A DNA stretch of 64,000 nucleotides from Siphonodentalium dalli (taxonomy: Eukaryota > Mollusca > Scaphopoda > Gadilida > Siphonodentaliidae): assembly GCA_032622095.1 (NCBI GenBank), contig CP136069.1, forward strand, positions 9,130,036 through 9,194,035, in the 5' to 3' direction. Positions 15,930-35,118 of this stretch are shown in pieces. A program made the translations under genes and the position numbers. Each line of letters begins with the position of its first letter. The first letter of the stretch is position 1. A model generated the notes under the pieces. It saw nothing but the letters and a program-made list of their open reading frames with translations, had not been told where the DNA came from and ran no database searches.

Positions 15930-16139
15930 TTATTTAAAGCCCCACGTAATGTTCAGCCCTAAATTTATATTATTTATAAACTATATTAATCTGCATACCA
16001 TTTGAATAATGAAGCTTCAAAACACAGATATATGCAGCCTAATAATGCAGGTTATTCGGTTCAAATAAATTATACAAGATGCCGAATGATGTTTTATTAT
16101 CAATGCCTGTTCACAAACGAACTGTTATTGTCAACCCGA

Positions 16140-20381: not shown

Positions 20382-20835
20382 GACCCGCCATATCAAATCC
20401 AGTCGTAAGTCGGGATGTTTTTACCCTGTGCCAATGCATTCTCTTATATATGCGAGTCGACCATAGGTCGCCTCGCATATATAAGAGAATGCATTGGCCT
20501 AACAATTTTTTACAATTTTTATAATTTGTTCTTGTATTCTTTAACAATTTTATAATTTCACCCATACAGAGCCCCAGACAAACATAAGCAGACGACACTC
20601 TTCTATATGCTTCTATATATGTGTTGGGCTCCCTGCAGGGTAATGGATGTTTTTTTTATTTTATGTCCTAAAAATTGTAATAAACATTTATTTTTAAAAA
20701 ATGATAAAAAATTGTTAGGCCAATGCATTCTCTTAACTATGCGAGGCGACCTATGGTCAACTCGCATATATAAGAGAATGCATTGGCACAGGGTGAAAAA
20801 ATCCCGACTTACGACTGGATTTGATATGGCGGGTC
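20382..20835. repeat. Palindrome interrupted by a double-hairpin element
   Basis: GACCCGCCATATCAAATCCA and the following AGTCGTAAGTCGGGAT at 20382-20416 are repeated inverted at 20801-20835. With the element at 20424-20793 removed, what remains is a palindrome of about 84 bp, so the insertion went into or very near its centre. CATTTG lies just outside both ends. Confidence 0.8.
20424..20793. mobile_element. Double-hairpin element, complete copy 1
   Basis: Each end of this 370-bp element is itself a hairpin. CCAATGCATTCTCTTATATA and the following TGCGAG are followed, after a loop of about 15 bases containing CGACCATAGGTCG, by their reverse complement. The whole element begins CCCTGTGCCAATG and ends in its inverse. 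The AT-rich middle holds AGAGCCCCAGACAAACAT and GGGCTCCCTGCAGGG. No coding capacity. Related copies: 23056, 25913, 58890, 59998, 62032 and 63247. Confidence 0.85.
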
Positions 20836-22367: not shown

Positions 22368-23014
22368 AGTCCATTGAAAACGCACTTCTATTTCCTTTTA
22401 CAAAACTAATGTAACTATTAATTGCATTGGATGGAATTGATCGCTCAAAACATCTCGAGGGTCCAACACCATTCGCTCTTTGAAATCATAAGTGCATCTT
22501 AGTCACTATCAATTCAAACTATATCGAATCGTGCCACCCAATTATTCAGTATGTGTATATGGGTCATCCGTGGCTCAGTCGGTATATAGACCATGTTGCA
22601 ATGACTGCCATACGCTGACCAGAATAGTGACCAAACTGAAGAGAGGATGTGTCGCGAATCAGAACACACCAGAAAATTTGAATATTTATATATTCTGAAC
22701 TATTGGCTATTTAACACTGTAAAGTTGCAATCCTATAGGTTGTATGGTAACGCCACACCAAACTAAAGTCCAATTATATCTAAACAACGGGATAGTCCAC
22801 ATGTCAAACACATTGTGAGTTTAGGCAAATTGATGTAGTATTACCATAGTTAAGATTCAAACTAGATAACCATACATGGCATTACAATTAGTTAAAATAT
22901 GTTCACTTTTCCAGCTTGCTGATCCTATAAAGCTGAACAAAACATTATGCAGGCCCCGAGTATGACATTGATAAGTTATAATTGGAAAGCGGAATACACC
23001 TAGAAGACTGTTAA
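22368..23014. other. No gene recognised
   Basis: A stretch at about 22562-22590 (CCGTGGCTCAGTCGGTATAT) resembles a tRNA A-box, but no B-box or cloverleaf follows. Otherwise AT-rich and uninformative. Confidence 0.4.
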
Positions 23015-23457
23015 CCCTTTGAGTGCCAGGTCCTATTTGTGTATCAACCCATATACCCTGTGCCAATGCATTCTCTTATATATGCGAGTCGACCATAGGT
23101 CGCCTCGCATATATAAGAGAATGCATTGGCCTAACAATTTTTCATCATTTCTAATTATTCTTTACAATTATTTACAATTTTAATAATTTGTTCTTGTATT
23201 CTTTAACAGACTTATTTTGTAGGTTTAGTGCCAGGGAATCTCACGTTTTTCATGGGCATCACAATTATTACTATGAATACTTGGTGATAGTTTTGAGTTA
23301 TAACATGCCCCTAAGGTTTTATCCAGTTTGTTTTTAAATTCGATATAGCTTGCGTAAGCATACCCAAAAAAGTCAACCCAATTTGTTTAATATTTTAGGG
23401 CCGATTTTACTGACCGTAAATTAGGGCCGATGAGATTGGCCCCTGGCACTGAAAGGG
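23015..23457. mobile_element. piggyBac-like MITE carrying a partial double-hairpin insert
   Basis: The left end is TTAA followed by CCCTTTGAGTGCCAGG. The right end is CCTGGCACTGAAAGGG, its near-inverse. TTAA targets and CCC termini are typical of piggyBac elements. The right TTAA has become TGTA. A partial double-hairpin element (23056-23210) lies inside. No transposase. Confidence 0.6.
23056..23210. mobile_element. Double-hairpin element, left half only
   Basis: It begins CCCTGTGCCAATGCATTC with a complete left hairpin and the AATTTGTTCTTGTATTCTTT part of the middle, then ends abruptly. The right hairpin is absent, so this copy is truncated. Confidence 0.8.
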
Positions 23458-23679
23458 TGTATGCATCAAGTTGTGGATCAGTTGCACAATGTGTGCATTT
23501 ATGGGCAGATGAATGTACAATTGCCATTACATTTCATCAAAAGACCTTGACCTTCATGTGTAGACCATGTAGTGAGCAACCATGCACCAGCACTACCAAC
23601 ATGCATACTAATATCAAACAATACAAATTAATTTCACAGAAACAGATAATTTCTCTTTTCTCCTATGTCTAATATGAAT

Positions 23680-24130
23680 CATACGTGACACGTAGTGGAG
23701 CAACCACACATGCTGTGCCTCAAATTTGCATTTTATCGGCGACATAGCGCTAAGAATAATCTATGTAACACCACGCAGTGATCACAACGGAGATGACATG
23801 CCAACTTGATAAGACGTGTCGTGGATTGTGCAATCTTGTCTGGATTCTGGCCCACAAATCTAAAATGACGTCAGAAACCGTGTCATGACGTCTTTATTTT
23901 TCGTTTTCATTAAGCTAACCAAAGAAATTGTTCTAATTGAAATTAATAGACTTAAATCACATGTGAATTCTTCGTAAGTTGTGAATTAGTTACTTTCATT
24001 TTCATCGGGATGCTTCATTCCCAATTCCGCGTTGTTTTTTTGCAATCTCCACACTGTTGCTAACGGGAAGTCACGTTATAATTTCTCCAAAAAATCACTG
24101 ATGGATATAGAAAAAAATATTGGTGGTTGC
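23680..24130. repeat. Dispersed duplication, copy B
   Basis: Counterpart of 18116-18600. This copy holds an extra TAAAATGACGTCAGAAACC-type stretch and leads directly into a 43-bp tandem repeat, whereas copy A leads toward the lectin exon. Confidence 0.7.
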
Positions 24131-24153
24131 TATAATGTCGATGCCATGGAAAC

Positions 24154-24368
24154 CAGATTTACAGCTTACCAGCGTCAATTTGTCCGGGAACCACCACATA
24201 TTTACGGCTTACCAGCGTCAGTTTGTCCGGGAACCACCACAGATTTACGGCTTACCAGCGTCAGTTTGACCGGGAACCACCACAGATTTACGTCTTACCA
24301 CCGTCAATTTGTCCGGGAAACACAACAGATTTACGGCTTACCAGCGTCGGTTTGTCCGGGAACCACCA
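24154..24368. repeat. Five tandem copies of a 43-bp unit
   Basis: The unit is CAGATTTACGGCTTACCAGC plus GTCAGTTTGTCCGGGAACCACCA. Since 43 is not a multiple of three, an open frame crossing it cycles through all three translations of the unit. That explains the protein-like repeats without requiring a gene. Confidence 0.85.
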
Positions 24369-24506
24369 CAGAAAAAGGATTTCGCTTGGTTCAAAGACCA
24401 TAATGTTCCAAGTTTCATTGTTTAGTCCGCTCAGTCACGATTTTGTGTTAATCCACTGGACTGCTGGTACAAGTGTGAGCTATCATGATCACGCTCAGTG
24501 TTTTAA

Positions 24507-24668
24507 CGCTTGGATGCTGCATTTTTGGGACAAAACCAGCATTTTGAGAGGATCTGCCAGTCGCTGTCATCAGGTGCGTTTGAACCACCGTTTGCATTTG
24601 ACGTTACCAATGTGTATTTCCTGCAACACATGTGTGATGATTGTGAGAAATGTTCGACATCATTCTAA
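24507..24668 (+). CDS. Possible terminal coding fragment, unrecognised
   Basis: An open stretch of 53 codons reads LGQNQHFERICQSLSSGAF and EPPFAFDVTNVYFLQHMCDD, then CEKCSTSF and a stop. Its composition is protein-like, with a CDDCEKC cysteine cluster, but it has no ATG and no clear acceptor. It could be a last exon or a decayed gene fragment. Confidence 0.25.
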   Translation, partial: RLDAAFLGQNQHFERICQSLSSGAFEPPFAFDVTNVYFLQHMCDDCEKCSTSF

Positions 24669-25749
24669 TACAAGGGAATAATTTATTAAAAGAAATTTCC
24701 AACCATATAAGGATGGAAATTTCCAACAGATAGCCATATGTGTCATTTTACCTAAAGTAAAAGAAAATATGAGAATTTCCGTATAAAATAAGTTAAATAG
24801 CAAGTTTCACGCTAAATTGGAAAAGGTCAAAACATGAAATTCGAATAAAATATTTGAACTTGTAATACGACCCTGCCTAACTATGCTTAAAAGCCATGTC
24901 CTGATTGGCCAGTGGCCCGAGTTACCATGGCTATCTCGTTCCAGTTTTGTGGTACAATTCTACTTTTTCCAATTGTACCACGAAAAAAATCGGTTTATTC
25001 AGATCGCCGCACGCGACTTTTCCCGTCTTTTCTAACTCCGCGCAAACTGGGCATCAACGGAGTACACCCGCACCCGTAACCCTTTGAATTTTGCTACATC
25101 TTGACAATCTTGCGAATTTTCTAGCGATTTGTCGCTTGAAACTAGTTTGGTTGCCAATGAATATGGTCCAAATGATGTTATGGTATATTGATATATGTTA
25201 CGACCAAAGAAAGTTACTTAATAAGTATATTAAATGACAAAATAAATCCATGGGGCCGGGCTGTGCATTCGTCGATTCGAATCTCGATCATATTCGATAT
25301 TTCGGAATCAAGTTGAAAATGAAAGCGTTTGTTCACCAGTACAGAAGGGGAATAAGATTAGTTTAGTAAACTAGATCATTTAGATCGCTTTGTGTAAGGA
25401 AAATGGTCCATAGTCGATGATCATATTCATGTTGTCCCAACAACGTTCAAAACAGAAATGACAGCAATCGTATTCCCTGTACAATTTAAATGAAACGCAC
25501 GGGCGCCGCTGAAAACACATCGTTTTTTTAGCCAATCACAACGATTATTTCTAGAAGAGGTGCCTTGAAAAGTTAACGGGGGAATTTCATAACAAGACAA
25601 GACATTACCAGAGTACTCCATGCAAAGAAATCGAGTACGCCCAATACGAATTACACCACGAAATGTTTTCTCACCTGAGACCGAAAAAGCGCAGTATTTC
25701 GTTGACTATTCAGTCGAATTGTGACCATCAACTTTCAGTCGTATTACAA
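24669..25749. other. No gene recognised
   Basis: AT-rich sequence with a small GGAAATTTCC palindrome near 24715. A phrase pair TTGTGGTACAATT and AATTGTACCAC near 24947-24980 forms a minor inverted repeat. Nothing coding is supported. Confidence 0.4.
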
Positions 25750-25897
25750 AAGAAATAAATACACGGTGTATCGGTGTGTATGGTCAAGTTGTACCACAAA
25801 AAACTGATTGTAGGACTCCGCTACGCGTCGTCCTACAATCAGTTTTTTTGTGGTACAACTTGACCATACACACCTCTACACTGTGTATTTATTTCTT
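25750..25897. mobile_element. Near-perfect foldback element, 67-bp arms
   Basis: The left arm (25750-25816) contains AAGAAATAAATACAC, GTGTGTATGGTCAAGTTGTA and ACTGATTGTAGGAC. The right arm (25830-25897) is its inverse with a few differences. The 13-base loop contains ACGCG. It lies 15 bp from a double-hairpin element. Confidence 0.8.
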
Positions 25898-25912
25898 AAT
25901 TACTACACGATG

Positions 25913-26281
25913 CCCTGTGCCAATGCATTCTCTTATATATGCGAGTCGACCATATGTCGCCTCGCATATATAAGAGAATGCATTGGCCTAACAATTTTTT
26001 ATCATGTTTTTTAAATAAATGTTTCTTACAATTTTTAGGACATAAAATAAAAAAATAACAATTACCCTGCAGGGAGCCCCACGCATATATAGAAGCATAT
26101 AGAAGAGTGTCGTCTGCTCGTGTTTGTCTGGGGCTCTGTATGGGTGAAATTATAAAATTGTTAAAGAATACAAGAACAAATTATTAAAATTGTAAAAAAT
26201 TGTTAGGCCAATGCATTCTCTTATATATGCGAGGCGACCTATGGTCGACTCGCATATATAAGAGAATGCATTGGCACAGAG
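25913..26281. mobile_element. Double-hairpin element, complete copy 2
   Basis: 369 bp, with the same two hairpin ends as 20424-20793. Its middle is in the opposite orientation to copy 1: GGGAGCCCCACGC comes first, then GTCTGGGGCTCTGTATGGG. Both hairpins are intact. Confidence 0.85.
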
Positions 26282-26376
26282 TATATGTAAAAAATGTATA
26301 TGTAAAAATTGCAACAATATCAAGGGAATGCAACACATTATGTTTACCTAACTGTCGTTATTGGAGAACTATATCA

Positions 26377-27076
26377 ATAATGCATATAAGTACAAGGTTT
26401 ATATAATTTATATAATGCATATAAGTACAAGGTTTATATAATTTATATAATGCATATAAGTACAAGGTTTATATAATTTATATAATGCATATAAGTACAA
26501 GGTTTATATAATTTATATAATGCATACAAGTACAAGGTTTATATAATTTATATAATGCATATAAGTAGAAGGTTTATATAACTTATATAATGCATATAAG
26601 TACAAGGTTTATATAATTTATATAATGCATATAAGTAGAAGGTTTATATAATTTATATAATGCATACAAGTACAAGGTTTATATAATTTATATAATGCAT
26701 ATAAGTACAAGGTTTATATAACTTATATAATGCATATAAGTACAAGGTTTATATAATTTATATAATGCATACAAGTACAAGGTTTATATAATTTATATAA
26801 TGCATATAAGTAGAAGGTTTATATAATTTATATAATGCATACAAGTACAAGGTTTATATAATTTATATAATGCATATAAGTACAAGGTTTACATAATTTA
26901 TATAATGCATATAAGTACAAGGTTTATATAATTTATATAATGCATATAAGTACAAGGTTTATATAATTTATATAATGCATATAAGTACAAGGTTTATATA
27001 ATTTATATAATGCATACAAGTACAAGGTTTATATAATTTATATAATGCATACAAGTACAAGGTTTATATAATTTAT
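26377..27076. repeat. 35-bp satellite array, left block
   Basis: About 20 head-to-tail units of ATAATGCATATAAGTACAAG plus GTTTATATAATTTAT with few substitutions (TATA/TACA and C/G at fixed positions). The same satellite resumes at 30990-31154, so the retroelement between was inserted into one array. Each unit contains ATAATGCA. Confidence 0.95.
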
Positions 27077-27474
27077 ATAATGCACCCAGGGCCGATAAGG
27101 TTCGGGGTGATTTATGTGGTTCTTCGATCCTGTCATCCGGCAGACATTCCGGTTTTTCGGTACGATCCGTTCCGTATCGGCCGAACTTAAAGTCCGCATT
27201 TTACATCCGCCCGGAATGCTGCCTCCTTCCGGTAACGGAAAAAGCAAGTCACTTTGGAATTATACGTATCGCGCTCTGTTGTGTGTCGTCAATTCCTATC
27301 TGTTTCCATCCGTCACCGTGTTTCTTCAACAGCCTTCATTTATTCGTCTATCATCTTGTTCCTTGTGCGTTCTGTCTGCGTCCTGTTCCGTCGGCGTTAC
27401 CTATTTTCGTGGGTCGCGCACGTGTTTCCCTGTTTCAGTGTTTGTCGTTCGGTGGCACTAAAAAAAGTTCTCCT

Positions 27475-28533
27475 ATGGTTCGTACGGGATCTCGCGGTCG
27501 GGCCCGCGCCCGTTCGTCTCGTAGCAGTCGACAGGATGAATCTGCCAGTTCGTCTCGTGCTGGTCCTGCTTCCAGTGATCGTGTTAGGCCTTCTTCTCGG
27601 GTTTCGGCAAGTGTGTCATCTGTGGCTGATTCACGGGTGCGTGGCCGTGGACAGCATTCGCGCGGCAGGCCTGCCCGTGGCTCTGGCCGGGGACGCCGCG
27701 CCTCCCGTGGCCGGGTTTCACATTCACGCGGCCGCGATCCTGTTCGTCAGCCTCGTCGTCAGCCCAGTCGTCAGTCTCGTCGCAGACAGGATGGTTCTCC
27801 GCGCCCCAAGTTTCCGCGCTATGAATCCAGGTCGCCATCAGCGTCTCCTTTGTCAACACGTCGACGCAGCAGTTCCGACGACAGCTCCACTTCTCTCCGC
27901 CGCCGCCGCGAGGATTCCCGTGTGGCATCGGTGATACACCGACCGAACGCTCCGGCAAGAGACATAACTGATCCGGGTAATCCCTTATTTAGCTTACCAT
28001 CCTCACTGGTCTCCCATTGGGACGCCCCCTTGCCGATTCCTACGGCGGCAGACGGTTTTGGCTCTCACATTTCCAGGTCTATTCGCGACAAAATTTTCCG
28101 GGGTGATTTTATCAATTTGGATCAACTGCAGGAACCCGCCTCATCTATTCATACAGCTGACCCCCGTCAGTTGGTTGTCTCTGCTTCCGGGCAAATCCGC
28201 GTTGCGCCAAGCGGGCATGCTGCTCCAATAACGTCTGTTGACTCGTGGACCGATGCTTTTCTCACTTTCGTTTCGGTGTACCTCGACGTTCACCCTGAAT
28301 CGTCGGCCCAGCCCCTTTTGCGTTACCTGCGCACAATTCGTTGGGCGGCTGCTAAATGTGGGGGATCTGCCTGGCAGGTGTACGATACCCAATTTCGGTT
28401 GAAGTGGGTTGGGAATACTGCTACTCCTTGGGAGACCATCGACCCTAACCTTTGGCTGCTGGTCATGACGCCCCAGGTTCGGCAACCTCCGATGGGATCC
28501 ATCTCTCCCCCGTCGGCAACGCTCTCTCCCTGA
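27475..28533 (+). CDS. Gag-like ORF1 of the DIRS-like element
   Basis: About 352 residues from MVRTGSRGRARARSSRSSRQ. The N-terminal half is Arg/Ser-rich and disordered-looking. The C-terminal half carries the conserved DIRS Gag wording: IFRGDFINLDQL, SVDSWTDAFLTFVSVY, YLRTIRWAA, WQVYDTQFRLKW and IDPNLWLLVM. In DIRS elements this protein packages the RNA. The region is far more GC-rich than its AT-rich surroundings, consistent with a transposed element. It belongs to an incomplete fossil copy. Confidence 0.7.
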   Translation: MVRTGSRGRARARSSRSSRQDESASSSRAGPASSDRVRPSSRVSASVSSVADSRVRGRGQHSRGRPARGSGRGRRASRGRVSHSRGRDPVRQPRRQPSRQSRRRQDGSPRPKFPRYESRSPSASPLSTRRRSSSDDSSTSLRRRREDSRVASVIHRPNAPARDITDPGNPLFSLPSSLVSHWDAPLPIPTAADGFGSHISRSIRDKIFRGDFINLDQLQEPASSIHTADPRQLVVSASGQIRVAPSGHAAPITSVDSWTDAFLTFVSVYLDVHPESSAQPLLRYLRTIRWAAAKCGGSAWQVYDTQFRLKWVGNTATPWETIDPNLWLLVMTPQVRQPPMGSISPPSATLSP

Positions 28534-28578
28534 ATAGTCTCCAGGACGCCCTGGGGACCTTCCTGGCATCTGACACTA

Positions 28579-29419
28579 CACTCTTAAAAATATAGGTACT
28601 TCAGAGTACCTATGTAGGTACTAAGCTTTGTCCCAGGGGGAGTACCAACTTTTTGGTACTCTGGAGTACCAAAAGTTTAGGTACTCTAGAGTACCAAAAT
28701 GTTTGGTACTCTGGAGTACCAACTTCTTGGTACTCTAGAGTACCAAAATGTTTGGTACTCTGGAGTACCAACTTCTTGGTACTCTAGAGTACCAAATTGT
28801 TGGTACTCTGGATTACCTAATAATTATTTAAGTTCTACCCGGGCATTGTGCATATAATACCCACCCCGCATTTATGTCACCGAAGCCATGACGCTCACGA
28901 TATGAGGTGCCAAGAAATAGATGCTGTCATGATAGGCCCTATATATTATCTGAAGTACCAAAATATCAAGACAGGTACTCTGAAGTATTTAGGTACTACG
29001 CATAGATCCAGCAATTTGATACTCCAGAGAACAAAATAGCCCTGATACCGGCAAATTTAACAATGTGACATGTTAGATTCCAAATTATGCTGCCGCGTTT
29101 AAACATCCAATTAAGTACAAAACCACAAAGACTCCCTTGCATAGTGCTAAATGAAATAATCCGACAGATCTACGACCGCGAGTCGACGGGCGGCCATTTT
29201 TCACTTTAATTTAATCGTTTGCACACGGCACTCGATATTGACACACCCACGGTCTCACCCAATCAGCATGGAGCCAACGATTGGCCCTCTGTGGAGTACC
29301 AACTCATGTGGTTCTATAACGCTAAACAGGCTATAAAGGCTTATAGTACCAAACTGTCTGGTACTATCGTGGCTTTTGGTTCCATGGGGTACCTAAATCA
29401 ATTGCTTTATTTGAGAGTG
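28579..29419. mobile_element. Mariner-type MITE with internal GGTACTC palindromes
   Basis: Termini CACTCTTAAA and TTTGAGAGTG are flanked by TA on both sides (28577-28578 and 29420-29421). Next to the left end is a tandem run (28600-28815) of GGTACTCTGGAGTACC palindromes spaced by AAAATGTTT or AACTTCTT. The word GGTACCT or TAGGTAC recurs near both ends. It sits inside the retroelement at 27077-30989. Confidence 0.6.
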
Positions 29420-30989
29420 TATGGTTTTCCCGGTGGTTTAACTGTTTCATTGATGTCATTGGGCATGGAGCTCCTGGTTTGGGGGAGTGCTGCGCACTCT
29501 ATGGCGGTCCTGCAGATAGTGGTAGTGGTAGTGGTAGTGTCGCCATAGCGTTATAACCTGTCTGGTAACTTTGATGGGTGGCTTATCAATAGTAGCTTAG
29601 TATGTTTATGACTGCGCAGTCATATTATGCTTATTCGAGAGTGCTCTCGAACTGTAGCCTGAGTGTAATATTCCAGGCCGTTGCTTAGCCATAGGGAGTT
29701 GGGCTGTCCACTGGTCTCTACTGCCATTCCTGCGTCGCACTCGTTGGGCTTCTCCCTGTTGGCCGTGTGTGCTTATTGCTTAGGGCGCCTCATAGCAATT
29801 CTTGGGCGCCGGCTCCGAATCGTACCTTGCTCGTCGGGCCATGCTCATGCCTGCGCTGTACAGAAGTATTTCTTCAGCGTTCTCTGCTTCGGCTTCTCGT
29901 CAGAGCTAAGGCTCTGCTTAATTGGTTTCCATGCGTATGGGCTATCTGCAGGACAAGCTTATAATGTTGCATTAAAGCTGAGATCATACCCCACTCATGT
30001 GTTGTCGTTTAAATATTCCATGTGATAAGAGTGTTCCCTGTAGTGCATACACAATCAATGCAGTAGTGGCAGGGCTGTCACTGGTGGGAGTAGTGTCTCT
30101 TGGATCTGAGTGATCACATAATGCACCCAGGGCCGATAAGGTTCGGGGTGATTTATGTGGTTCTTTGATCCTGTCATCCGGCAGACATTCCGGTTTTTCG
30201 GTACGATCCGTTCCGTATCGGCCGAACTTAAAGTCCGCATTTTACATCCGCCCGGAATGCTGCCTCCTTCCGGTAACGGAAAAAGCAAGTCACTTTGGAA
30301 TTATACGTATCGCGCTCCCTCCCTCCCCCCTTGGAGCTCCATGCCCCGCTTTGTTCGGCGTCCCGAAGTGGCACGCCATCTTCATTGTTATGTGATGCCT
30401 GTTTTGTTTTGGGCCTATGGCCCTGTTTGTTTAAATCTCGTTGCTGCTGTTTGTTTTCACTTTCAGGTGCTGTGTCATCAGTGCCATTGATCCAGCTTTG
30501 GTGCGTCCTGCGGGGGTAACTGTGGTGTTACCCGCCCATCGCCGTTGCTTAGCCATAGGGAGTTGGGCTGTCCAGTGGTATATACTGCCATTCCTGCGTC
30601 GCACTCGTTGGGCTTCTCCCTGCTGGCCGTGTGTGCTTATTGCTTAGGGCGCCTCATAGCAATTCTTGGGCGCCGGCTCCGAATCGTACCTTGCTCGTCG
30701 GGCCATGCTCATGCCTGCGCTGTACAGAAGTATTTCTTCAGCGTTCTCTGCTTCGGCTTCTCGTCAGAGCTAAGGCTCTGCTTAATTGGTTTCCATGCGT
30801 ATGGGCTATCTGCAGGACAAGCTTATAATGTTGCATTAAAGCTGAGATCATACCCCACTCATGTGTTGTCGTTTAAATATTCCATGTGATAAGAGTGTTC
30901 CCTGTAGTGCATACACAATCAATGCAGTAGTGGCAGGGCTGTCACTGGTGGGGGTAGTGTCTCTTGGATCTGAGTGATCACATAATGCA

Positions 30990-31154
30990 TACAAGTACAA
31001 GGTTTATATAATTTATATAATGCATATAAGTACAAGGTTTATATAATTTATATAATGCATATAAGTACAAGGTTTATATAATTTATATAATGCATATAAG
31101 TACAAGGTTTATATAATTTATATAATGCATATAAGTACAAGGTTTATATAATTT
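30990..31154. repeat. 35-bp satellite array, right block
   Basis: Nearly five more units of the satellite at 26377-27076, in the same orientation and phase, continuing straight from the octamer at the end of the retroelement. Confidence 0.9.
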
Positions 31155-31289
31155 TCCATGTTCTTCTTTGAGGTAATCTTTTTTACAGATTTTTTATTTA
31201 TTTTTCATATTTACCTACTGCAAGTGCCTTAGTTTAAACAATATTTTATTTGAATTAAACAAAGGCACAAACAATACATAGCCATGACA

Positions 31290-31801
31290 TCTACTATATA
31301 TTTTGGGACTTCTGTTTGTCTGTCTGTCTGTTTGTCTGTTAGCTATGGTCGGGAAAACTGCCCGACGGATTTTGACGAAATTTGATACCTAGGGGTAATT
31401 TTTTCCAGGGATGGTTTTGGACGGGTCAAATCGTGACCCCGACCCGACCTTGACCTTCAAAAAGGTCAATTCGCGGTCAAATCTGGTAAAACGGACGGAT
31501 TTCGACGAAATTTTATACTTAGAGTTACTTTTGGACGGGCAGTCTTTTGGACGGGTCAAATCGTTATCCCGACGTGACCTTGACCTTCAAAATGGTCAAT
31601 TCAAGGTCAAATCGGGTAAAATCAGATGCATTTCGACGGGTTATTTTGTCGGGTACTTTTGTTCGGGGAGTGTTTTGGACGGGTCAAATCGTGACCCAGA
31701 CCTGACCTTGACCTTCACAATGGTCAATTCAAGGTCAATTCGCGCAATTCGCCGAAAAGCAGAGGGGAATCAGCCCGGACGAAGTCGGGTCCACCAGCTA
31801 G
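31290..31801 (+). mobile_element. Short non-autonomous Helitron, both ends present
   Basis: The 5' end is TCTACTATATATTTTGGGAC after an A. The 3' end is the hairpin CCCGGACGAAGTCGGG, then TCCACCAG and CTAG, followed by T. TC...CTAG ends, a 3' hairpin about 12 bases before the end and insertion between A and T are the defining Helitron marks. The interior is three diverged copies of a unit with TTTTGGACGGGTCAAATCGT and GACCTTGACCTTCA. No Rep/helicase. Fragments of relatives are at 36797-36972 and 56510-56560. Confidence 0.8.
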
Positions 31802-32259
31802 TATAGTATATATGTTCAAAAGAGGATCGGGTAACAATCATTGATAATTTTGTTAAATCCTACCCTCAGAAAATAAATGTTACCCCATGTATCTTGGAAT
31901 GGATTCCATTGGGTATATAGCAGACGGGTTTGGTTCTCTGTGGTCCGAGTAAGATATTTTAGATGAAAGGAAGGATAATGGTAAGTGAGTGTAAGCAGTA
32001 ATTAGAAAGAAATTGGGGGGATTTCGAACGTCTATTGATCAGGATTAGTTCACATTATTAACAATACATTAAGGAGCTGTTAAGTTTAATGTATGTTATA
32101 AGTATTTAATAAGTGAAAAAATCAGTACACAGCAATAACAAAAGACGAGTCCGCACCGCAATTAAATATTCATTGGTAGAGCGTGTGGTGTTGCATGGGC
32201 TAAAACACGGTTGCCTTGGGTCCCTTAAAACAGTTTTTACACAAATGTATGTGACCTAC
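31802..32259. other. No gene recognised; should lie in an FABP intron
   Basis: This lies just 3' of the FABP exon at 32260-32364 on the minus strand, so the last FABP exon might be expected here or further left. I searched for a short frame with a CTRxY-like ending and found none. Confidence 0.4.
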
Positions 32260-32364
32260 CATCAATAATTCGTCGCCAACGATTTCTCTATACACTGTTT
32301 GTTCTTTACCCTTGCTGTCGACTTGACGTTCAATAAGTTGTCCGTTGGTGTATGATGTCGTCAC
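32260..32364 (-). CDS. Fatty-acid-binding protein, third exon
   Basis: A 105-nt exon (35 codons, phase 0 at both ends) between acceptor TTTTACGCAG and donor GTAGGT. It reads VTTSYTNGQLIERQVDSKGK then EQTVYREIVGDELLM. This is the penultimate-exon signature of intracellular lipid-binding proteins: a strand, the D-x-K-G-K turn, then (Y)REIVGDEL. Vertebrate FABP third exons are 102 nt with the same phases. The product would be a small cytosolic beta-barrel that carries fatty acids or retinoids. It pairs with exon 1 at 57924-58011 on the same strand. Exon 2 (expected about 170 nt) and exon 4 were not found. Confidence 0.8.
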
Positions 32365-32591
32365 CTGCGTAAAACGTTAAGGAAAGACGTCACAACTCTG
32401 TGAAAAGAACCCAGAACGGAGATCATACGTCATAATAAGGCCATGGTTGCAAAATGTCTCAAATCGAAGTGTGAATCCTTCGTATTATTCACCGATATAA
32501 ATAACTCAATCAGAAAAGATAGCGAATGGGCTATTTATACATTTTATTACATGATCATACCCTTATTCCATTCAATAAACCTATTCTATAT

Positions 32592-32756
32592 AAATACACA
32601 GAACGACACGATGTATTTGTGTTTGTCGATACGACACGAGTGCTGTCGTGGAAGGATAGAACGAGAGACGCTTGCGCCTCGAGTTCTATCCTTCCGCGAC
32701 AGCATGATTGTCGTATCGACAAACCCATTTACACATCGTCTCGTTCTGTGTTTATT
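32592..32756. mobile_element. Foldback element, about 77-bp arms
   Basis: Left-arm phrases ACACAGAACGACACGATGT, TTTGTCGATACGACA and GGAAGGATAGAAC recur inverted on the right, around a centre GAGACGCTTGCGCCTCG. The copies have diverged slightly. It lies in the FABP intron adjacent to exon 3. Confidence 0.75.
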
Positions 32757-33328
32757 ACACGCTTCGTGTCCTAGAATCCGTGCATTAAAAATACAGGATT
32801 AGAAGGTTTATTTAGGCTCATATATACAGGGCGTGTTTGTCATCTGTGATGATTCTTTTATTTAAATAGTTCCAGTTTCACGGTTGAGGCGAACGTCATA
32901 TACGTCATTTTACGTCAACGAGATTCGTATGGAACGTACGTTCCGTACGGATTTGTAAATATGGAACAGCAATAACACTGTACTTCTTTAAACGTTCGTT
33001 TAATAACAGGAAATAGTGGCAGGTGACCTTTGACTTCCGGTTTGTCGTGCGCTACGTCTCAAAAATAATATGGCTTCCAAAATGTCTCCAACAAAATATA
33101 ATGAATGAAGAGTTTGAAGAGTTATGTCATTAAATATACGCCATCAACTACGGTACGTTAAAGAGTCTTTACTTGTCTGGGACTATTTCTTTACGCGGGC
33201 AAAACAATTCATGGTTATGTATACGTGAAACGTCATCGCAGGCCTTATAGAAGCCGATGTTAGTTTCGCGTCCTATCTTTTTTATTTAAGTGTGTTTTGT
33301 CGAAGTTTGGATCATGTAATAAATAGAA
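32757..33328. other. No gene recognised (FABP intron)
   Basis: Contains a palindromic word GGAACGTACGTTCC at 32932-32945 and nothing coding that I can support. Confidence 0.4.
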
Positions 33329-33473
33329 TCTACAATTTATCCCCAGTTTATAGCGGAATTTACAAAACCCGTCAAGTAAATTAGGTCTTGACCTCGCCAA
33401 AGGCTCGGTCCAGACCTAATTTACTGGACTCGTTTTGTAAATTCCGCTATAAACTGGGGACTCGTTGTAGATC
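33329..33473. mobile_element. Foldback MITE, 'GTTTATAGCGG' family, copy 2
   Basis: Arms contain CCCCAGTTTATAGCGGAATT and its inverse. Mirrored TAAATTAGGTCTTGACC and GGTCCAGACCTAATTTA lie inside. It is less diverged between arms than the copy at 19552-19692. Confidence 0.8.
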
Positions 33474-33523
33474 CTTTATTTGTTTGCTCACTAATCTAAT
33501 CCCCATATAAATATAACTTTAAA

Positions 33524-33935
33524 CCCACACCATTATATTCCATGTATAGATGATGAGTATATAAGTTTGGTGAAAATCTGCGACACAATTTATTCGCGCA
33601 CATTTGTAGCCCTCCCTTCCGCATCCCTAGCCCGAATAGGGTCAATTTGGTTCATATAAACCACATAATTAGATTCGTCGTATCATGTCGATGACTATAT
33701 AACGTTGGTGGAAATCGGAGAGTCAAGCATGCTTACCAATATCAGTGCCCCCTCTACATATGTGACTAAACGGCACCAATGTGTCGTCTTAAACCACACG
33801 CTTAGATTTCGCGTATTGTTTAGATATCAATTTGGTGGAAATCGGCAATAAAATATTTTCTACAAATTTTTTTTCCCTCCCCTACACTCCCCATCACTGA
33901 CTGGAACGGGTCATTTTTAAACCACACAGTTAGAC
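33524..33935. repeat. Diverged tandem repeat, about 135-170 bp
   Basis: Three units share AAACCACAC--TTAGA, then TATAA-TTTGGTGGAAATC, then a CCCTCCC-type pyrimidine stretch. No coding potential. Confidence 0.6.
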
Positions 33936-34334
33936 GATAATAGTCATCGCTATAGGTGATAATTACAGTCACCGAATTATGAGAATTTCCTCAAGAAGAT
34001 ACTAATAATATAGTATAATTATATTATGAATGCGATAGTATCAACAAAACACGTTTTGTGTGAGCCGAGCGTTTGTTTATATACAGCACTTAAATAGTGA
34101 GCGATAAGCAAAACACTAAACACCGTAAATATATTTTATGACAATGATTCACAGTGACCCATTCAACATCGAAATCTTGAGAGGCGAGGATTAGTGAGCG
34201 CTATACCGGCATGTTGTAAACAACTTGGTGGCATTTTAAACCAAAATTCACTAAATAGAGTCTCCTGATTGTTTGATTGATTGATGGATTAATACTCAAA
34301 TAGCACAAAATTAGATTGTAAATATGAGCATATA

Positions 34335-35118
34335 CCTTACTGTTATTTAAATTCGCGCAGTACTATTTTTCGCGCACCCTTCGGTGCGTGAATTTAAAAC
34401 TGAGTGAAAATTAGTACGACTCCTGAATTTATACCAAACCACCCGGAAACAATAAGGCTATATGTTGATCAGTTAAGTAATTGTATATATACATTACGGA
34501 AAGTTGGACCGAATATTAGGCTTGCAGGACTATAATTTACATGCGGGAACCAATATCAAAACCATTACTGATATGTATGACATACGTATATAGCAATAAT
34601 TCATGGTAACATCATTGATGTTGAAATACTTGTAAGAAATACACATATTGCAGATGCACGAAGGTACGTACTGTATATCCACAACACTGGCACTACACCG
34701 TCACAGAACAGTCTGAGTTAGTAATGTCAACACAACCCATCATAGCCAAGTTTTGATTTGTTTTTCTGATGTAAGTTTTCTATATGCGGTTGTGGTTTTA
34801 CTTCTTTCGAGTTCATTCCAATTATGTTATAACTATTTCAATATCAGAATAATTATTTGGAGCGTATAACAACTATGACTTTATAAGATATTGGTGGTGC
34901 AGCTTTGTTAAATTATTAAATTATACACGATGTAAAGCCACCGTGCATGATGTTGTTTAATAATAAACGATTAAGATCTGTAACAATCATCAAATCCAAG
35001 CATTTTACGAAAATATTTTGTCAGTTTTGAATTCGCGCAGCATGGTGCGCAAAATCAAAGTGTGCGAATTCAAAACTGAGCGAAAAATAGTCCTTCGTGA
35101 ATTTAGATACGAGTAAGG
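34335..35118. mobile_element. Non-autonomous element with 44-bp inverted ends
   Basis: The left end CCTTACTGTTATTTAAATTC continues to CGCGCAGTACTATTTTTCGC. The right end is its inverse with a few changes. TA flanks both sides (34333-34334 and 35119-35120), suggesting Tc1/mariner type. A second inverted word GTGCGCAAAATC/GAATTCGCGCAG occurs next to the right end. No transposase. Confidence 0.65.

Follow-up and report, generated by a model that had tools for sequence, protein, structure and literature searches.

Among the retrotransposons with a tyrosine recombinase (YR), amphibian Ngaro-like elements combine split direct repeats with an open reading frame (ORF) for an SGNH hydrolase, as described in the accessible parts of PMC9210276. 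For DIRS1-like elements, the accessible parts of PMC3266345 describe a 3-bp circular junction that recombines with an identical host triplet and leaves no target duplication. Here we describe an element of this kind from the scaphopod Siphonodentalium dalli. It interrupts an array of a 35-bp satellite in a stretch of 64,000 nucleotides (C9:9130036-9194035 of a genome of 2.23 Gb in nine contigs), hereafter called the window. Judged by its repeats and by the domains of longer relatives, it derives by deletion from a Ngaro-like YR retrotransposon and is a non-autonomous copy that still carries gag. It very probably entered a pre-existing satellite by chance, the satellite being no dedicated home for it.

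Two pairs of direct repeats in the order A1-body-B1-A2-spacer-B2 lie between the satellite halves (Table 1), an arrangement that bears out the A/B anatomy with a B1/A2 junction described in an earlier note on this DNA. Tandem Repeats Finder places the satellite at 26377-27084 (20.2 copies) and 30982-31154 (4.9 copies). The earlier note had drawn attention to the octamer ATAATGCA, present in the satellite units and also at 27077, 30118 and 30982, and had taken it for the site of strand exchange. These coordinates are right. The octamer occurs 28 times in the window against about seven expected by chance: 21 times in 26377-27077, once at 30118, five times in 30982-31122 and once at 16042.

The role assigned to the octamer was examined at the ends of other copies. 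Their left ends read host DNA, N, TAA and then TGCACCCAGG. The triplet is TAA in 53, TAT in five and TAG in one of 59 left ends, 20 of which were found with a TAA-containing pattern and cannot reveal other cores; it is always followed by TGC[A/G] (59/59). When the triplet was left free, 95 distinct sequences from the first 100 of 177 matches gave TAA in 80 cases, TAT in 11 and another triplet in four; C at -2 was excluded from this set, as was C at +2 from the corresponding set of right ends, also the first 100 matches. At the right, CACATAA is followed by varied host DNA in 56 of 57 ends, the exception being L051 with AGAA. Here L079 and L086 were left out, their B ends not lying within the fetched stretch, and the right end of L009 is counted as L050. 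One right-end set came from a similarity search and is biased to ends resembling the query, and the table of 59 left and 57 right ends shares some copies with the wider sets.

In three copies (L024; L027; L040 with L065) the left triplet is TAT or TAG and the right end still reads TAA. The left triplet therefore belongs to the host and the right one to the element, with the exchange point just past the triplet. The octamer is thus a composite, with A from the right end of the element, TAA shared and TGCA from its left end, as other copies show. Judged from these ends, the shared target is TAA rather than ATAATGCA; only TAA is generally common to the ends and the target, and the eight shared bases do not emerge as one functional unit. 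As a site of exchange the octamer fails on the right flanks, which vary past TAA and read TGCA in only 1 of 57.

The distribution of copies over the genome bears on the larger claim of the earlier note, namely that the recombinase uses ATAATGCA as its core and that the element has a dedicated integration home in the 35-bp satellite. We consider this highly improbable. It is true that all three octamers exist, that TAATG, a part of the octamer, is a favoured target, and that TGCA is found at free right ends about eight times as often as background predicts (5 against 0.6). However, exact A starts number 361 genome-wide (matches to a 23-mer beginning TAATGCACCCAGGG, A1 and A2 starts counted together, exact matches only), whereas the 87 occurrences of an exact 30-base satellite motif are confined to two arrays on C9, that of the window and an empty one at C9:10287104-10289793 (L048). 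A similarity search for more of the satellite gave only weak matches, to an unrelated tandem sequence on C8. By far the most copies must therefore lie outside the 35-bp satellite. When the flanks of other copies were tabulated (20 bases each), the satellite stood beside none of the 59 left ends and none of the 57 right ends, other copies lying in unrelated DNA. Free right ends reading ATAATGCA number five in the genome (exact pattern, next base not C), that of the window and four in unrelated DNA outside the satellite; the pattern matches a sixth time at the altered joint of L012. Nor does the octamer occur in the empty sites related to four other copies (see below). Copies in unrelated DNA without ATAATGCA are the very result that the earlier note had named as refuting its reading.

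The 35-bp satellite is not the only tandem repeat to have received a copy: L021 lies in a 374-bp repeat and L025 in a 68-bp repeat. These make at least two of the 19 fully read other copies (L010-L028), a lower bound, as Tandem Repeats Finder was run around these two only. The titles and abstracts returned by a literature search held no report linking YR elements to satellites or satellite arrays. The locus C8:120.11 Mb does not qualify as a related satellite. Its tandem sequence, rich in TATAATG, is another one, which holds 15 octamers within 1.9 kb but lacks any A start. Each of the two similarity searches that supplied element ends scored 40 candidates, out of 515 in one and 520 in the other. 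Within the window, 25981-26283 and 20405-20725 are copies of the repeat that hosts another element copy, L018, and the left flank of L108 is similar to the same repeat.

The earlier note had also suggested that the B1/A2 junction is the joint of a circular intermediate, and this idea gains support. If the right end CACATAA is placed directly before the left end TGCACCC, the result is CACATAATGCACCC, which is the B1/A2 joint and equals the predicted joint of a circle. The octamer stands at this joint in 16 of 16 copies read, the window copy included, and CACATAATGCACCC is exact in 15; in the remaining copy, L012, a single C is replaced by T directly after the octamer. Genome-wide the joint occurs 141 times, two positions being left variable. 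That the B1/A2 joint mirrors a circle seems a reasonable reading. We propose that the RNA of the element is copied into a circle by proteins supplied in trans by full-length relatives, the ends meeting as CACATAA/TGCACCC. The YR of a relative would then recombine the circle joint with host DNA at a TAA, or more rarely a TAT, with a preference for those that TG follows. The product would be host DNA with its TAA, then TGCACCC...CACATAA, then host DNA, with no duplication. The satellite units offered TAATG and would have been struck by chance.

Joints of this kind also occur in series. At L113 (C4:131053500-131056700) and L114 (C1:87603700-87606600), tandem A2-spacer-B2 units of about 0.83-0.87 kb are joined by CACATAATGCA, and the spacing of joints, among the 100 listed of 141, points to at least two further loci of this kind, at C4:9.63 Mb and C5:134.79 Mb. 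It is conceivable, if unlikely, that the CACATAATGCA joint lets the element build satellites of its own through the recombinase and not by ordinary unequal crossing-over; further circles would enter at a joint already present, which offers the preferred target TAATG. If so, the element would make its own satellites at four or more loci. Separately, five copies (L013, L020, L025, L027 and L028) have A-body-B only, with normal ends, as would result from cutting at the B1/A2 joint or from B1-B2 exchange.

Insertion at a short core without target-site duplication, known for Ngaro elements, was found in this family as well. The flanks of the L048 array are those of the window array, with three differences in 404 bases on one side and three in 405 on the other (6/809; about 99% identity). 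L048 is unbroken, with about 75 units and no A start, against about 25 units in the window. When the window flanks are joined with TAA counted once, the product differs by a single mismatch from several places in L048. Among the 19 fully read copies, the targets of L012, L021 and L025, joined in this way, have close relatives that read the same TAA once and without the octamer; the target of L018 has a relative with TAA at this place and another with TAT. Relatives of the L023 and L024 targets are weaker (77% and 67%) and are not relied upon. Thus, related empty sites carry the host triplet once (L048; L012, L018, L021, L025), and the absence of a target duplication asserted in the earlier note is upheld.

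The empty array belongs to a segmental duplication that pairs window 22400-34500 (compared in pieces) with C9:10283127-10293151, 1.13 Mb apart on one contig. Duplicate pieces of window 22400-23400 and 33000-34500 were found at matching distances, and the duplicate is 99-100% identical in the parts searched. The duplication may be recent; alternatively, the second copy may be a misplaced haplotype.

Several points weigh against the account proposed above. First, the empty duplicate array may have lost an element by unequal exchange within the array. In favour of an element that predated the duplication and was then lost from the duplicate by unequal crossing-over between units, the internal divergence of the window copy (A1/A2 1/192, B1/B2 5/441) resembles that of the duplicate flanks (6/809), and the array sizes differ. 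Insertion after the duplication is the simpler account, and we regard the loss as rather unlikely; the order of insertion and duplication leaves the reading of the ends unchanged.

Second, the target is not TAA alone. Among 100 right-end matches listed, 59 are free right ends (55 distinct), the remainder being joints. After TAA, T stands at +1 in 34 and G at +2 in 22 of these 55, and TG in 17 against about 7% expected. TG was found in 6 of 36 ends (p 0.017) in a set chosen regardless of the right end and in 7 of 20 in a set favouring query-like ends; the p-values are single tests picked post hoc, and the sets overlap in copies. On the left, A at -3 is common (61 of 95 ends), and four of the 95 left triplets are neither TAA nor TAT. 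A sequence preference beyond TAA thus exists, and the satellite is a better-than-average target: the element favours TAATG, and each 35-bp unit offers one. Finally, the five TGCA among about 169 free right ends (310 minus 141, an approximation) compare with 0.6 from plain background and about 3.3 from the TG preference multiplied by background. The latter figure leaves CA without need of explanation. The ATAATG of the satellite accordingly matches a preferred target and the last CA of the octamer fits chance. With TAATG over-represented, the octamer match is not purely accidental over its first six bases, but the octamer as exchange site is not supported.

Target choice might then use about five to six bases of homology to the circle joint, (A)TAATG, and not three, with the satellite one of the best sites and still not a dedicated one. 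We hold this to be evenly balanced. The excess of T, of G and of TG after TAA speaks for it, in the set chosen regardless of the right end as well as in the query-favouring one. Most insertions, however, lack TG, and the tests carry the post hoc choice and shared copies mentioned above. TG might also be contributed by the circle when strands are exchanged, although TGC is retained in every one of the 59 left ends. Either way, entry of the derivative into the satellite by chance is the reading that we retain.

Table 1. Features of the element and of the flanking satellite, in window coordinates.
Feature	Position	Strand	Remarks
Whole inserted element, TGCACCC...CACATAA	27081..30985	+	3905 bp; ends set by comparison with other copies (59 left ends, 57 right ends)
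Split direct repeat A1 (including octamer)	27077..27276	+	repeat comparison
Split direct repeat A2	30118..30317	+	repeat comparison
Split direct repeat B1	29677..30117	+	repeat comparison
Split direct repeat B2	30541..30981	+	right end of element extends to core TAA 30983-30985
Short A2-B2 spacer	30318..30540	+	repeat comparison
B1/A2 joint, CACATAATGCACCC	30115..30128	+	equal to the predicted joint of a circle (right end, then left end)
ORF1, Gag position	27475..28533	+	352 aa and stop; Arg/Ser-rich
Nested insertion	28579..29419	no strand	841 bp; TA on both sides; short inverted ends CACTCT/AGAGTG
Left satellite part	26377..27080	no strand	ends in host core TAA 27078-27080; tandem-repeat call, octamer list, uninterrupted same array in L048
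Right satellite part	30986..31154	no strand	register matches left part if TAA is counted once

The repeats of the window copy are little diverged: A1 and A2 differ once in 200 nt (1/192 in the divergence count), and B1 and B2 are 98.9% alike over 441 nt (5/441 differ). Fourteen of the 19 sister copies carry all four repeats and span about 3.0-3.1 kb; the other five have A and B only. With its extra TA, the nested insertion makes up 843 bp of the element. It is missing in the sister L010, which runs straight through GACACTATGG, and four short copies (L010, L017, L018 and L028) are colinear with the window copy except for it. Four inverted-repeat pairs of at least 30 nt were reported for the window copy, all within the nested insertion, which also holds a run of palindromic GGTACTC units.

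ORF1 would be Gag from its position. In a comparison with Pfam, the ORFs of the window, ORF1 included, gave no credible match. An ORF of 343-352 aa stands at this position in 12 of the 19 copies, and also in L009 and the window. Its shared variants are nine silent and nine changing, the singletons 21 silent and 59 changing (Fisher p 0.086). Selection on this ORF is not claimed; shared variants lean silent, at a non-significant level.

The enzymes are found in longer relatives. L069 has a reverse transcriptase (RT; PF00078, RVT_1, E 2.6e-8), which is absent from the window copy; for RNase H (RH), the longer relatives gave a weak RVT_3 match (E 0.0055, below the curated cut-off). About 2.6 kb of the RT-YR region of L069 and part of its ORF1 region have no counterpart in the window copy. 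A YR was identified above cut-off in L111 (PF00589, Phage_integrase, E 1.2e-8) and L110 (E 8.2e-9), and its motif of R, HxxR and Y was seen by eye in long relatives. Together, RVT_1 and Phage_integrase support a retrotransposon of the tyrosine-recombinase type. Long copies also show a weak match to a GDSL hydrolase (best E 5.4e-6, below the curated cut-off). A search of PDB with the RT piece gave no match at E 0.01, and in the pieces of the longer relatives that were scanned, Pfam gave no match to a methyltransferase, the domain whose absence sets Ngaro apart from DIRS and PAT. L009 was rejected as a full-length element: the copy spans about 7.3 kb and holds a set of frames in the opposite direction that by eye resembles a retrotransposon without long terminal repeats.

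What emerges is a measured target rule for a Ngaro-like family in one genome: TAA, preferably followed by TG, with no duplication and with several related empty sites. The accessible parts of PMC8547959, PMC4157794, PMC3266345, PMC9210276 and PMC6681497 give no equally explicit rule for Ngaro elements. A match between the end of an element and a host repeat should be checked against other copies before it is called site specificity. The element itself is ordinary and well explained; its insertion mechanism is ordinary and its type of retrotransposon already known.

With PAT-like elements, as far as the accessible parts of PMC4157794 describe them, the family shares split direct repeats A1-B1-A2-B2; the methyltransferase domain of PAT has no Pfam counterpart in the pieces scanned here. 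With DIRS1-like elements it shares the logic of a 3-bp circular junction and a host triplet, insertion without target duplication and mostly A/T triplets (accessible parts of PMC3266345). In contrast to the inverted terminal repeats, internal complementary regions and methyltransferase domain described there, the repeats here are direct and split, and neither inverted terminal repeats nor internal complementary regions of the DIRS1 kind were found. The likeness to Ngaro-like elements, compared through published descriptions of their members, is one of repeats, ORFs and domains. The accessible parts of PMC9210276, PMC8547959 and PMC6681497 describe the arrangement A1-[ORFs]-B1A2B2, an ORF at the Gag position, RT/RH and YR, a hydrolase-like ORF in amphibian Ngaro, and scattered partial AB copies. 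This family shares the split direct repeats A1 ... B1 A2 B2, the ORF at the Gag position, RT, YR and the partial AB copies, with RH and the hydrolase-like ORF as weak matches. Of the ORFs, the window copy retains only that at the Gag position, RT/RH and most of YR having been lost.

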